NCBI GenBank assembly: GCA_027061995.1
Contig: JAMOUT010000091.1
Location: 1-5,603 of the forward strand
Direction of reading: 5' to 3'
Length of the DNA stretch: 5,603 nt
Source: Candidatus Aminicenantota bacterium
GTDB lineage: Bacteria; Acidobacteriota; Aminicenantia; JAMOAD01
This document shows, in pieces, positions 1 to 3,351 of the stretch. Within the stretch, counting starts at the first letter, position 1, and the number at the start of each line of letters is the position of its first letter. A model generated the notes under the pieces. It saw only the letters and a program-made list of their open reading frames with translations. It did no database searches and had not been told where the DNA came from. Both the position numbers and the translations under genes were made by a program.

Positions 1-722
1 TTCTTTATTTTATAATCATATATTCTTATCTCCCTACCCCAGTTACATGAAAATAATATTTTTTCATTATTAAGCTTTTTTAAGAAAAACGATTCTTTAA
101 AAAATGAAGAAGAAAGTCTTCCTACCGCCCCTTTATTCTTCTCTGTTTTTTTTATAGTAAAAACATTATATTTTTTACCTGTTCTTATATCTTCTATCAT
201 AATATTATAAAAGGTTGTTATTTTTTTCTTTGTTTCTTGAGATTTTACTCTAAGAATGACTATTTTATTATTTTTTAATCCCACCACATCAAATACATCA
301 TCTTTTGTTCTGATTATCTTTACGAAATTCCCTTCCAAATCAAATACACTTATTCTCTTATCATAATTATTTACAAGTAAATACTTATTATCAAGAATTG
401 ATAAAGCCCCCGGATGATACAGATCCCCCGGTCCTCTTCCCTTTCTTCCGATTTTTTTTAAAAATTTACCATCTTTATCAAATTTATAAACACAGTGTTG
501 CGCTTTATTCCCAAGCCCTGTTGCAAAAAAACTTCCGTCTTTTGCAAAAGCTATATCCTTTATCCCTTGCGGAAAATAGATATCCCATTCAGTCCCTTTT
601 CCGAAATCGGGATCGGGAACAAGTTTAATCTTTCCGCTCTTGTAAACATCCAATAGTGATGCTGATAGTGTTAATGAAAACAAAATTAAGAAAAATAAAA
701 TAAAGTAAATACTTTTTTTCAT
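1..722 (-). CDS. Secreted six-bladed beta-propeller protein C (3' end cut by window edge)
   Basis: An open frame runs from ATG at 722-720 to the window edge without a stop, giving 240 residues; the C-terminus is missing. Residues 1-21 form a signal peptide (MKK, a hydrophobic run, then LTLSA before SLLD), with likely signal peptidase I cleavage after Ala21 and no lipobox, so the mature protein is probably periplasmic or exported. Blade-like units follow: IAFAKDGSFFATG (57-69), a VYKFDKDGKFLKKIG strand pair (78-92), the family motif GRGPGDL at 95-101, then SVFDLEGNFVKII (125-137). The G-x-G-P-G-[DE] motif is typical of six-bladed beta-propeller proteins of the DUF5128/NHL-like kind, usually 350-400 residues. 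About 60% of such a protein is present. Residues 15-117 are 94% identical to gene A (1893-3083); the remainder diverges. It starts 9 bases after the stop of gene B, so the two are almost certainly co-transcribed. The ligand is unknown. Confidence 0.88.
   Translation of the reverse strand, partial: MKKSIYFILFFLILFSLTLSASLLDVYKSGKIKLVPDPDFGKGTEWDIYFPQGIKDIAFAKDGSFFATGLGNKAQHCVYKFDKDGKFLKKIGRKGRGPGDLYHPGALSILDNKYLLVNNYDKRISVFDLEGNFVKIIRTKDDVFDVVGLKNNKIVILRVKSQETKKKITTFYNIMIEDIRTGKKYNVFTIKKTEKNKGAVGRLSSSFFKESFFLKKLNNEKILFSCNWGREIRIYDYKIK
386..682. repeat. Direct repeat copy 1 (front half of propeller gene C)
   Basis: This segment aligns without gaps to 2729-3025 at a constant offset of 2343 bases. 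By hand count there are about 27 mismatches in 297 bases, close to 91% identity. The part from 592 to 682 differs at a single base. The repeat begins inside the signal peptide and covers the GRGPGDL motif. Similarity continues at a lower level, with a six-base indel, to about position 240 before fading. Confidence 0.9.
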
Positions 723-726
723 TGTA

Positions 727-732
727 TCACTC
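727..732 (-). promoter_or_regulatory. Weak ribosome site of gene C overlapping the stop of gene B
   Basis: The only Shine-Dalgarno-like sequence before ATG 722 is GAGTGA, whose first base is the last base of the TAG stop of gene B. With a nine-base gap and a weak site, translation of C may depend on ribosomes finishing B (translational coupling). This is an inference from spacing. Confidence 0.45.
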
Positions 733-1868
733 TAAAAAATATCTTCAGGATTTTTTACCCTGTATTCGGTAAAAACATCCCCATTATCCGTTTCCTTGAG
801 ATAGCCGAGATATCCTCCACCAAAAAAAGTAAACTCATCCATTTCCCTACCTTCGGGAGGAAGCAACCTATAAATATAATTTCCCTTCATGTCAAAAACA
901 TCGGCATTTCCATCTCCATCATAAACAAGCAGATAACCGGCGGGGGATACCTCCATATTTATAAAAGCAAGTTTTTTATCGGGAAGTTTTTTAATAAGAG
1001 CTTTTTGTATCTCCTTTCCCATATTTTTAAACATATTGGAAATTTTGATTTTTTCCTCATTCGTGCGATATCTCTCCTTATCTTTTTTCCCGAAAGTGCA
1101 TATTTTATCTCCTTTCAAATCAACGGAATATATTTTATATTTATCGCTAACACCAAAATAGACAATCCTGTTTTTTCTGTCGTAAGCCCATTCTATGGCG
1201 GGAAAAACTCCACTAATACCGAAAGCAATCGCACCTTTACCGGTTCTAACTATTGTAATTCCACTCTTGAGTGTATCAAAATACTTTACAAGCACTTTTT
1301 CATTAATATCCATAAGTCCAACTGCTTTTTTAAAAACAGTTTGCTTGTCACTTTTTTGAACATCATCAAAGGTTCCGACAAACTCATTATCATTCACTAT
1401 CTCAATCCCGTGCCTTTTCTTAAAACTTTTCTCAAAAACAACATCTCCCGCAAAATCAAATTTTATTAATTTTCTGCCGCTCGATACATATACCCCTTCC
1501 GGTAATATTCTAAAATAAGAGATATAAGGAAGTTCCCCCGGACCTTGACCTTTCTTTAAAAAACTTTTTAAATACTTACCTTCGGGAGAATATTTAAGTA
1601 TGGAACCCGTTTTAGAGAAGGAAAAATAATAATCCCCGTTTTTATCTTTTCCCATCCATCCCAAATTTATGGCATCAGGATTTGTTTCCGAAGGATCAAA
1701 ACTCAAAACCTTTTCAAGCTCAAGTTTAAGCTCTCCTTTTTGAGGAACAGTTTGTTCGAGAAGATTGTTTTCAGCGGTTTTTTTAATATGTTTTTTTGTG
1801 GTTTTACTTTTACAAGAAAACAAAAACACCGTAAATAAAATAATAAATAAAACGGATATTTTTTTCAT
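732..1868 (-). CDS. Six-bladed beta-propeller lipoprotein B
   Basis: This is a complete 378-residue protein. The N-terminus is a lipoprotein signal: MKK, a hydrophobic stretch, then lipobox LFSC with Cys19 as the predicted lipidated residue. Lys20 follows; by the E. coli Lol +2 rule this would favour the outer membrane, though the rule may not hold in this organism. A charged, probably flexible linker (about 20-50) precedes the propeller. Blade-like repeats are visible at GKDKNGDYYFSFSKTGSILKY (73-93, split by turns), the family motif GQGPGEL at 107-113, IKFDFAGDVVFEKSF (135-149), IYSVDLKGDKICTFG (246-260), VSPAGYLLVYDGDGNADVF (307-325) and FDMKGNYIYRLL (325-336). Length fits the family. It resembles genes A and C only in motifs and fold, so it is an older paralogue. 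Start choice is supported by GGAG five bases upstream. It sits 24 bases after gene A and 9 before gene C. Function is unknown; a surface-anchored binding or scaffold role is inferred. Confidence 0.9.
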   Translation of the reverse strand: MKKISVLFIILFTVFLFSCKSKTTKKHIKKTAENNLLEQTVPQKGELKLELEKVLSFDPSETNPDAINLGWMGKDKNGDYYFSFSKTGSILKYSPEGKYLKSFLKKGQGPGELPYISYFRILPEGVYVSSGRKLIKFDFAGDVVFEKSFKKRHGIEIVNDNEFVGTFDDVQKSDKQTVFKKAVGLMDINEKVLVKYFDTLKSGITIVRTGKGAIAFGISGVFPAIEWAYDRKNRIVYFGVSDKYKIYSVDLKGDKICTFGKKDKERYRTNEEKIKISNMFKNMGKEIQKALIKKLPDKKLAFINMEVSPAGYLLVYDGDGNADVFDMKGNYIYRLLPPEGREMDEFTFFGGGYLGYLKETDNGDVFTEYRVKNPEDIF

Positions 1869-1873
1869 CCTTT

Positions 1874-1877
1874 CTCC
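1874..1877 (-). promoter_or_regulatory. Shine-Dalgarno site of lipoprotein gene B
   Basis: The transcript reads GAAGGAGAAAGG directly before ATG at 1868. The GGAG core is five bases from the start codon and lies within the 24-base gap after gene A, which supports the start chosen and the operon arrangement. Confidence 0.75.
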
Positions 1878-1892
1878 TTCTTTATACTGAAA

Positions 1893-3083
1893 TTATTGAT
1901 TCTTTTCAATTTCCACTCTCTTCAAAATTCCACCTTCATCATCAAAATAATATATATAACCATTATTAAACCACAATTTTTCTTTTGATAATATTTCACC
2001 TTCCCTGCTCTCCGGATCTATAACCATCTTTCCGACATATTTTAATTCTTTTGTCCAAATATCAATTTTAACCTTATTGGCTATATAAAGCTCTTTTTTC
2101 TTTTCATTATACAGATATTTGATATTTCCAAATACAAGGACATTGCCCTCATTGTCAAGGTATAATGAGCTATAATACGGTTTATCCTCGGGGAAAAGGG
2201 TATTGTTTTTATACATTCTTTTTAAAATCTTGATAGCATATGGATTTTTTTTATAGATATCCGCTAAATATTTATAAAATGATTTCTTTTCATTATTTTC
2301 AGGTTTTTCTTTATAAACTTTTAGTTTAAAAGACTTTATTAAATTCCCATTAAATGAAAAAATATCAATTCTCGGAATTCCGGAAAATCCGCATAAAATT
2401 GATTTATCATTAAATTTATACAGATACACTTGCTTTGTAAATATGGGAATCATTATTACTCCGCCTTGAGATTTTAGTTTTTTCCTTAAATTCTTATATA
2501 TTTTAATAACTGATTTTTTCTCGGTTTTTATATCTTCAAAATAAATTGTTGAATATTCAATTGCACCTGCTTTTTCAAAACGAAATGTCAGAATGGCTAT
2601 TTTGTTATTTCCCAATCCAACAACATCAAAAACAGGATCTCTTGTTTTTATAATTTTTATAAATTTCCCGTTCAAATCGAAAACACTTATCTTCATGTTC
2701 AAAGGATAATCAGCAACAAGCAAATATTTATTATCAAGAATTGATAAAGCCCCCGGATGATACAAATCTCCAGGGCCTCTCCCTTTCCTTCCGATTTTTT
2801 TTAAAAATTTACCGTTTTTATCAAATTTATAAACACAGTGTTGCGCTTTATTTCCCATCCCTGTTGCAAAAAAACTCCCGTCAGGTAAAAAGGCTATATC
2901 GCCCACCCCTTGCGGAAAATAGATATCCCACTCGGTCCCTTTTCCGAAATCGGGATCGGGAACAAGTTTAATCTTTCCGCTCTTGTAAACATCCAATAGT
3001 GAAGCTGATAGTGTTAATGAAAACACAAGCAACAAAATCATAAAACTTACTCCTTTCATAATCCGAAAACTTCTTAAATTCAT
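1893..3083 (-). CDS. Secreted six-bladed beta-propeller protein A
   Basis: This is a complete 396-residue protein. Residues 1-27 look like a Sec signal peptide (basic start, hydrophobic FMILLLVF, LTLSA with cleavage after Ala27); there is no lipobox. Blade-like segments: IAFLPDGSFFATG (63-75), VYKFDKNGKFLKKIG (84-98), the family motif GRGPGDL at 101-107, SVFDLNGKFIKII (133-145), VYLYKFNDKSILCGF (219-233), DIFSFNGNLIKSF (240-252), a mostly helical Lys-rich insertion (about 255-300), then SLYLDNEGNVLVFG (306-319) and IDIWTKELKYVGKM (340-353). This fits a six-bladed propeller of the DUF5128/NHL-like type. The start at 3083 has GGAGG ten bases upstream. The paralogue C starts at the position matching Met9 here, so Met9 is an alternative start, but it has a poorer ribosome site. 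It is the first gene of a three-gene array. Only two cysteines (83, 231) are present. Ligand and partners are unknown. Confidence 0.9.
   Translation of the reverse strand: MNLRSFRIMKGVSFMILLLVFSLTLSASLLDVYKSGKIKLVPDPDFGKGTEWDIYFPQGVGDIAFLPDGSFFATGMGNKAQHCVYKFDKNGKFLKKIGRKGRGPGDLYHPGALSILDNKYLLVADYPLNMKISVFDLNGKFIKIIKTRDPVFDVVGLGNNKIAILTFRFEKAGAIEYSTIYFEDIKTEKKSVIKIYKNLRKKLKSQGGVIMIPIFTKQVYLYKFNDKSILCGFSGIPRIDIFSFNGNLIKSFKLKVYKEKPENNEKKSFYKYLADIYKKNPYAIKILKRMYKNNTLFPEDKPYYSSLYLDNEGNVLVFGNIKYLYNEKKKELYIANKVKIDIWTKELKYVGKMVIDPESREGEILSKEKLWFNNGYIYYFDDEGGILKRVEIEKNQ
2729..3025. repeat. Direct repeat copy 2 (front half of propeller gene A)
   Basis: This is the partner of 386-682, in the same orientation. 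It encodes residues 20-118 or so of protein A. The first bases of the two genes, coding for the start of the signal peptide, are not part of the repeat, so the duplicated or converted block has a boundary inside the coding sequence rather than at the gene start. Confidence 0.9.
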
Positions 3084-3093
3084 TTTTCCATCA

Positions 3094-3098
3094 CCTCC
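3094..3098 (-). promoter_or_regulatory. Strong Shine-Dalgarno site of propeller gene A
   Basis: On the transcript the sequence reads AAGGAGGTGATGG before the start, a near-perfect match to the anti-Shine-Dalgarno of 16S rRNA. The GGAGG core is ten bases from the ATG at 3083, which favours this start over the internal Met9. A second ATG at 3091 lies too close to the site and stops after three codons. Confidence 0.8.
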
Positions 3099-3103
3099 TT
3101 TTT

Positions 3104-3288
3104 TAAAGCATAAAGCCGTTCCTTCGGGCAGCCCCGCACCAAATTCTGAAGCTTAAAGCCACAAGCCTCGAAGCCTCCGGGGCAGCTCTTTGGGCATAAA
3201 GCAATTAAAGCCCTTATAAAAGCTACCAAAGCTCTTAAGCTTCTGCAAAATTGAGCTGTTGGGGCTTTCAGTATTCGAAGCTCATAGC
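3104..3288. repeat. Degenerate AAGCC-type heptamer repeat tract
   Basis: Heptamers of the form TAAAGCC appear in loose tandem. TAAAGCA (3104) is followed directly by TAAAGCC (3111). TGAAGCT (3147), TAAAGCC (3154) and ACAAGCC (3161) are exactly contiguous, followed by the eight-base TCGAAGCC (3168). Further AAGC or AGCTC words recur at spacings of 7-9, 12 or 16 bases up to 3288. An inverted pair, gaagcttaa at 3148-3156 and ttaagcttc at 3235-3243, could form a nine-base stem with a long loop, but part of this follows from the palindromic word aagctt. The pattern resembles decayed short tandemly repeated heptamers seen between genes in various bacteria; it does not encode protein. Confidence 0.65.
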
Positions 3289-3316
3289 TCTTGCAAAATC
3301 TCGCACGGTTTTAAAA

Positions 3317-3351
3317 ATTCAGCATTCATAATTTATCACTCATAATTATTA
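3317..3351. repeat. Five degenerate ATTCATA heptamers in tandem
   Basis: Reading the plus strand in sevens from 3317 gives ATTCAGC, ATTCATA, ATTTATC, ACTCATA and ATTATTA without a gap. Three positions of the unit are nearly invariant (A1, T3 and the A/T-rich end). The block sits 32 bases downstream of the RND stop codon. It has the same seven-base period as the AAGCC-type tract next to it but a different unit. It is too short and too AT-rich to exclude chance on its own; the shared period with the neighbouring tract supports it. Confidence 0.55.

Follow-up and report, generated by a model that had tools for sequence, protein, structure and literature searches.

Homogenised fronts, old divergent backs and neighbouring RiPP-like peptide genes in a family of secreted six-bladed propellers of Candidatus Aminicenantota

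A GG-leader radical-SAM RiPP system, in which TIGR04149, TIGR04148 and TIGR04150 occur with a C39 ABC exporter and HlyD, has been described in Bacteroides (PMC4573289). TpsA/tpsC of Neisseria features a constant front, an exchangeable 3′ part, a small downstream gene and silent or extra copies, and undergoes gene conversion (PMC3848433). In open-licence literature, no account was found of a propeller/RiPP pairing or of gene conversion in the group studied here.

The window analyzed was the whole of contig C91 (5603 bp) from a Candidatus Aminicenantota MAG, G000 (2.36 Mb, 104 contigs). Its main genes, all on the minus strand, are an RND pump gene (cut), C, B1 and A (cut), in that order. Because the contig ends inside gene A, A is incomplete within the window. 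A 142-nt overlap with contig C33 (one mismatch) showed that A continues there (locus L015), and the full-length protein of 397 aa allowed the comparison of the A and C back halves to be completed. The coordinates of all features are collected in the table.

Table. Features of the 5603-bp window; positions are those of the window.
Feature	Position	Strand	Evidence
Gene A (secreted six-bladed propeller, 397 aa), first 240 codons	3..722	-	ORF; PF17170, 40.3 bits
Constant front of A, residues 15-117	372..680	-	97/103 identity to C; dS profile
Segment of A front nearly unchanged at silent sites	564-680	-	dS profile
Variable back of A, beginning at about residue 146	3..287	-	Identity drop, saturated dS
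Gene B1, lipoprotein propeller-like protein between C and A	732..1868	-	ORF with lipobox-like FLFSC
5′ conversion tract of B1 (first ~60 codons)	1689..1868	-	Match to paralogue B2 (C33; L089 13342-13521)
Gene C, 396-aa secreted six-bladed propeller	1893..3083	-	ORF; PF17170, 32.0 bits; AlphaFold model
Constant front of C, residues 21-123	2715..3023	-	Identity to A; dS profile
Segment of C front nearly unchanged at silent sites	2907-3023	-	dS profile
Switch zone of C, residues ~139-159, from G3_40-like front to G3_194a-like back	2609..2669	-	Mosaic scan; secondary structure of model
Variable back of C, blades 3-6 and helical insert	1893..2640	-	aa identity to other backs
Dispersed repeat copy directly upstream of C	3094..3351	.	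Repeat matches in own genome
RND efflux pump gene (AcrB family), truncated at contig end	3384..5603	-	PF00873, 320 bits

Both A and C exceeded the Pfam gathering cutoff (22.9 bits) for PF17170 (6-bladed beta-propeller). The AlphaFold model of C (pLDDT 93.4, pTM 0.90) has a predicted strand pattern that fits six blades. When this model was submitted to Foldseek, the best matches were NHL propellers; the Bacteroides exported propeller-like structures 3s9j and 4raa were also recovered, and no solved close relative was among the matches. The Pfam scan of A and C returned propeller-type matches only, with no toxin domain in the variable C-terminal part. For B1, the same type of scan gave a weak TolB_like match below the cutoff; its orthologue in the related genome G003 is 74% identical and adjoins the same RND gene. 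The latter gene was used as a divergence control (orthologues, pS 0.61-0.66).

The gene order is RND, C, B1, A, X, B2 in G000, with dispersed repeats at several junctions; it is RND, X, Y, B1, B2 in G003 and RND then B1 in the related genome G004. From these orders, A and C look like insertions into an older RND/B locus; alternatively, they may have been lost from the loci of the relatives. The dispersed repeat marks rearrangement junctions, and it may break the assembly. It has about 50 matches in G000, 20 in G003 and 0 in G004, often near contig ends; further copies lie on C33 downstream of A and upstream of B2 (L015 1513-1721 and 2702-2882) and at the start of L014.

G003 and G004, which belong to the same family as G000 and to another genus, carry arrays of the same propeller genes. 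(Copies are labeled G0, G3 and G4 for G000, G003 and G004, respectively.) Four copies were located in G003 on contigs C194 and C40; a 39-nt overlap between the contig ends agrees with a single array of four pairs. There were five copies in G004 (contigs C13 and C151) and one in G027, a member of another family. In G000, the copies are A, C and D (on contig C56), along with a 5′ end on contig C59. The constant front is common to all copies in these four genomes, and the constant-plus-variable design proposed in the initial annotation is real in three genomes. The arrays are known from three genomes only, all of them fragmented short-read MAGs that break at these genes.

Combining the 5′ end on C59 with the rest on C56 as a single gene D was considered and rejected; the ends do not overlap, and they differ where they can be compared. 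Indeed, the C59 5′ end and the start of D on C56 (L014 1-83 and L013 1-40) differ in sequence. They may be two copies, and G000 may hold one copy beyond those assembled. Many further, more distant propeller genes are found on contig C174 of G004 (L056, L092).

Short-read chimeras arising in assembly or binning could also have joined fronts to backs, and contigs C91, C56, C59, C194 and C13 do break inside or near these genes. Nevertheless, the same pattern appears in three MAGs, A and C reside on a single contig with scattered differences (longest exact DNA match, 68 nt), the overlap with C33 is clean, and the mosaic of B1 and B2 (see below) displays the pattern independently. Such an artefact is thus regarded as very unlikely.

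The fronts of A and C were recounted and are identical at 97 of 103 residues (94%), in agreement with the initial annotation, although its residue numbers were off; the block spans A15-117 and C21-123. The 39-residue identical run (FSLTLSA...YFPQG) does contain exactly three silent codon differences. A drop in identity follows the front, as described, but the hand count of 61% (27/44) for it did not stand: the recount for C118-161 was 30/42 (71%). The matches are indeed scattered farther back, with 56 of 232 residues (24%) identical after C161.

Synonymous sites had been called nearly unchanged in the front. This held for the first ~40 codons (pS 0.12) but not for the next ~60 (pS 0.34) or for the block after codon ~100 (pS 0.62), which is already saturated; pS remains about 0.6 thereafter. 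Along the gene, dS was ~0.1 in the first ~40 codons, 0.3-0.6 up to codon ~120, and saturated behind. The dS profile that had been suggested as a check was therefore low in front and saturated behind, and the uniform synonymous divergence that had been named as counterevidence is not what A and C have. The silent profile of this pair is a gradient followed by a break, not one uniform constant half. Silent codons were identical at 81/96 positions in the front vs. 43/82 in the back (Fisher P=4e-6), and the longest run of identical silent codons had a permutation P of 0.009.

In the non-coding DNA that precedes the start codons, the tandem copies of G003 and G004 are 93-99% identical over ca. 150 nt. 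Because the homogenised tract includes this upstream DNA, protein constraint is no explanation there. Purifying selection at the protein level on the front is also real, and it acts together with recombination: dN/dS was 0.06-0.3 in the front vs. 0.3-0.9 behind, rough values that rest on near-saturated dS and are no demonstration of positive selection. Constraint at the nucleotide level, i.e. an RNA or regulatory element that preserves the front, would agree with silent divergence being lowest near the 5′ end. Between G000 and G004, however, the silent sites of the fronts have reached saturation (pS 0.55-0.76 in the first block), which rules out a general constraint on the nucleotides; we consider this explanation exceedingly improbable.

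The histories of the two halves were compared in trees. The protein tree of the back halves mixes genomes: D, G3_40 and G4_151 formed a clade (support 97/97), and C was joined with G3_194a (86/95). One-genome clades for the backs were rejected by the AU test (P of 2e-4 for G4, 3e-5 for G0 and 7e-4 for G3). In the DNA tree of the fronts, the G4 copies were together, as were the copies of G0 and G3; few branches were starred, and the G0 copies were not one group. The back-half clade of D, G3_40 and G4_151 was rejected for the fronts (AU test, P 2e-9). Comparison with related genomes, another of the suggested checks, thus revealed backs that cross genomes and fronts that group by genome or genome pair.

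The back of C is 56% identical (aa) to that of G3_194a vs. 23-25% to the A and D backs of its own genome. In the mosaic scan, the front of C was closest to G3_40 or A and its back to G3_194a, with the change at residues ~139-159, which correspond to the end of blade 2 and the start of blade 3 in the AlphaFold model. C is a mosaic in which a G3_40-like front is joined to a G3_194a-like back. Within the front, a PHI-type compatibility test using all sites yielded P<=0.0005 in every set (the floor for 2000 permutations); with third positions alone, P was <=0.0005 in the G0+G3 set and 0.003-0.10 in larger sets.

A recent duplication could have produced A and C, after which the back halves would have changed very quickly (diversifying evolution) without any recombination; the higher dN/dS there would accord with this. 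Yet the backs are closer to orthologues from another genus than to each other (C-G3_194a, 56%; C-A, 25%), silent sites are saturated in the back and not in the front, and the AU tests also stand against it. We deem this scenario highly improbable. Recombination with an independently evolving back, as the initial annotation proposed, is supported by the AU and PHI-type tests, the mosaic scan and the upstream DNA; the part of that proposal that did not suffice is a recent conversion between A and C in one genome.

The evidence on this last point comes from comparisons between genera. A and G3_40 share 114 identical bases in a row, and their pS in the first block (~40 codons) is 0.04, lower than that of A vs. 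C (0.12). The G000/G003 controls were saturated (RND, pS 0.66; PyrB, pS 0.70), and their longest exact matches were 35 nt and 17 nt, respectively. Since the front of A is nearer to a copy from another genus than to C even though the controls are saturated, the fronts have probably been exchanged between genera as well. Lateral exchange, in either direction, is the simplest reading of the likeness between A and G3_40. The mean first-block pS for G0-G3 pairs (0.26) was no higher than that within G0 (0.35); homogenisation was not confined to one genome, as the G0 and G3 fronts were intermixed.

An independent instance was encountered in B1. Its first 30 codons are 97% identical (nt) to G0_B2 (pS 0.06) vs. 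73% to G3_B1; past the first ~60 codons, the best fit is the orthologous B1 of G003. The 5′ tract of B1 is a clear case of conversion from B2, independent of A and C. As in concerted evolution, then, paralogous segments are more alike than orthology predicts (trees, AU tests, B1/B2). This within-genome 5′ conversion at the very same locus, together with the A/C silent tract, could be taken to favor a recent conversion that involved only A and C of one genome. That account is nonetheless unlikely, because the front of A is nearer to the copy of genus g2, and the outermost 5′ codons and the front of C also fit the genus g2 copy best.

The non-window copies have a further gene in common. In 10 of 10 with a readable downstream region, the next gene was a GG-leader RiPP precursor gene (TIGR04149-like), an ORF of 59-69 codons on the same strand, about 10-55 nt behind the propeller gene. 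Their leaders share the conserved pattern KLKLT...GG, and CxCxC and GSSxxxN occur in the cores. By profile search, G000 has one such peptide (behind D on C56), G003 has four and G004 has five, and no match was obtained in G001 or G002; the count equals the number of non-window copies in G000, G003 and G004. No peptide ORF adjoined A or C, either in the window or at the end of A on C33. No GG peptides turned up when remoter homologues from other families of the class were scanned.

Four of the ten peptides (copies from G003 and G004) scored above the TIGR04149 cutoff; the other six were below it or unmatched. The G004 contigs with these genes also encode a TIGR04148 maturase and a TIGR04150 pseudo-rSAM protein (both above cutoff), a C39 ABC transporter and an HlyD-like protein. 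In G000, the single TIGR04148 match fell short of the cutoff (187 of 300 bits) and TIGR04150 was not matched; neither was found in the genome profile search of G003. Contig C94 of G000 (L112 372-4788) has a TIGR04148-like radical-SAM protein below cutoff, a lipoprotein, a G027-like companion gene and an ABC transporter, and is a possible second RiPP locus in that genome. G029 has two RiPP loci (L110, L111) in which TIGR04148 and TIGR04150 proteins occur with GG-leader-like peptides; a propeller-like gene lies near each.

The correspondence between back halves and peptides was assessed in several ways. When 120 peptide triplets were ranked by similarity of their cores, two of three back-half groups were the most similar (ranks 2 and 1) and the third had rank 40, the first group having been fixed by the back-half tree and the other two picked by eye after looking; in the same ranking, the leaders had no back-half group pattern. 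The overlap of back-half and peptide neighbors had P=0.0002 with gaps counted and 0.15 with gaps ignored. In Mantel tests against the peptides, P was 0.064 (non-significant) for the back and 0.035 for a front segment. The clade of D, G3_40 and G4_151 was absent from the peptide tree (AU, 0.053). With ten pairs and several measures tried, the agreement is suggestive only: that back-half type and peptide-core type go together is a lead, not a result.

Taken as a whole, our explanation, in which fronts recombine within and between genomes, variable backs are old and peptides are paired with propellers in relatives, is considered probable. It draws on the observed mosaics, on conflicting trees, on fronts that differ little at silent sites, on tracts shared across genera and on one-to-one peptide pairing in the relatives. 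A and C belong to a small set of paralogous secreted propellers with six blades. Purifying selection would keep the front (signal peptide, N-terminus and blades 1-2) constant, together with repeated homologous recombination over short tracts, which would pass between copies in a genome and, via lateral DNA exchange, between genera, such that the first third of the gene is repeatedly overwritten. The backs (blades 3-6) come from old lineages that had separated before the genera did; they diverge fast and would be too dissimilar to recombine.

The functional part of this explanation is tentative, and we hold it with somewhat more doubt than conviction. The front would serve a shared task, and the back would bind a cognate exported peptide as a receptor, carrier or immunity protein. 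Because every copy elsewhere has a small peptide gene of its own, the variable part may recognize the encoded peptide. The earlier idea that the back might diversify a ligand face of the propeller thereby gains a candidate, the putative RiPP peptide encoded next door in the relatives. A and C may be orphan copies that were moved from peptide genes to the RND/B locus. More doubtful still is a fully modular family, in which a constant front would be combined with exchangeable cassettes of a back and its cognate RiPP, homologous flanks would allow swaps within and between genera, the back would be a peptide-specific receptor or immunity protein, and A and C would be orphans.

As we read this family, part of a secreted, receptor-like protein is subject to recombination and the remainder stays old and diverse, a pattern that extends across genera of an uncultured lineage. 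An uncharacterised propeller family is also linked to RiPP peptides. If the pairing is functional, specificity could be studied in a large, naturally occurring collection of matched peptide/propeller pairs, and a common family of unknown role would gain a possible function.

Like TpsA/tpsC and other toxin/immunity systems with a constant N-terminus and a variable C-terminus, the propellers have a constant front, an exchangeable 3′ part and a small gene downstream, as well as additional copies and gene conversion. Unlike in TpsA/tpsC, no toxin domain was found in the variable part of A and C, and the small gene is RiPP precursor-like rather than immunity-like; the likeness is limited to the mode of evolution. 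A and C conform to PF17170 (DUF5128) in their above-threshold scores and modeled six-bladed propeller, but the definition of that family does not include the homogenised front, divergent back or pairing with peptide genes seen here. The GG-leader RiPP system of Bacteroides is matched by the four peptides above the TIGR04149 cutoff and, in G004, by the TIGR04148, TIGR04150 and C39 transporter genes beside the propeller genes. The term “propeller” is absent from the description of that system (PMC4573289), whereas here the genes form tandem arrays in which each peptide gene lies behind its own propeller gene.
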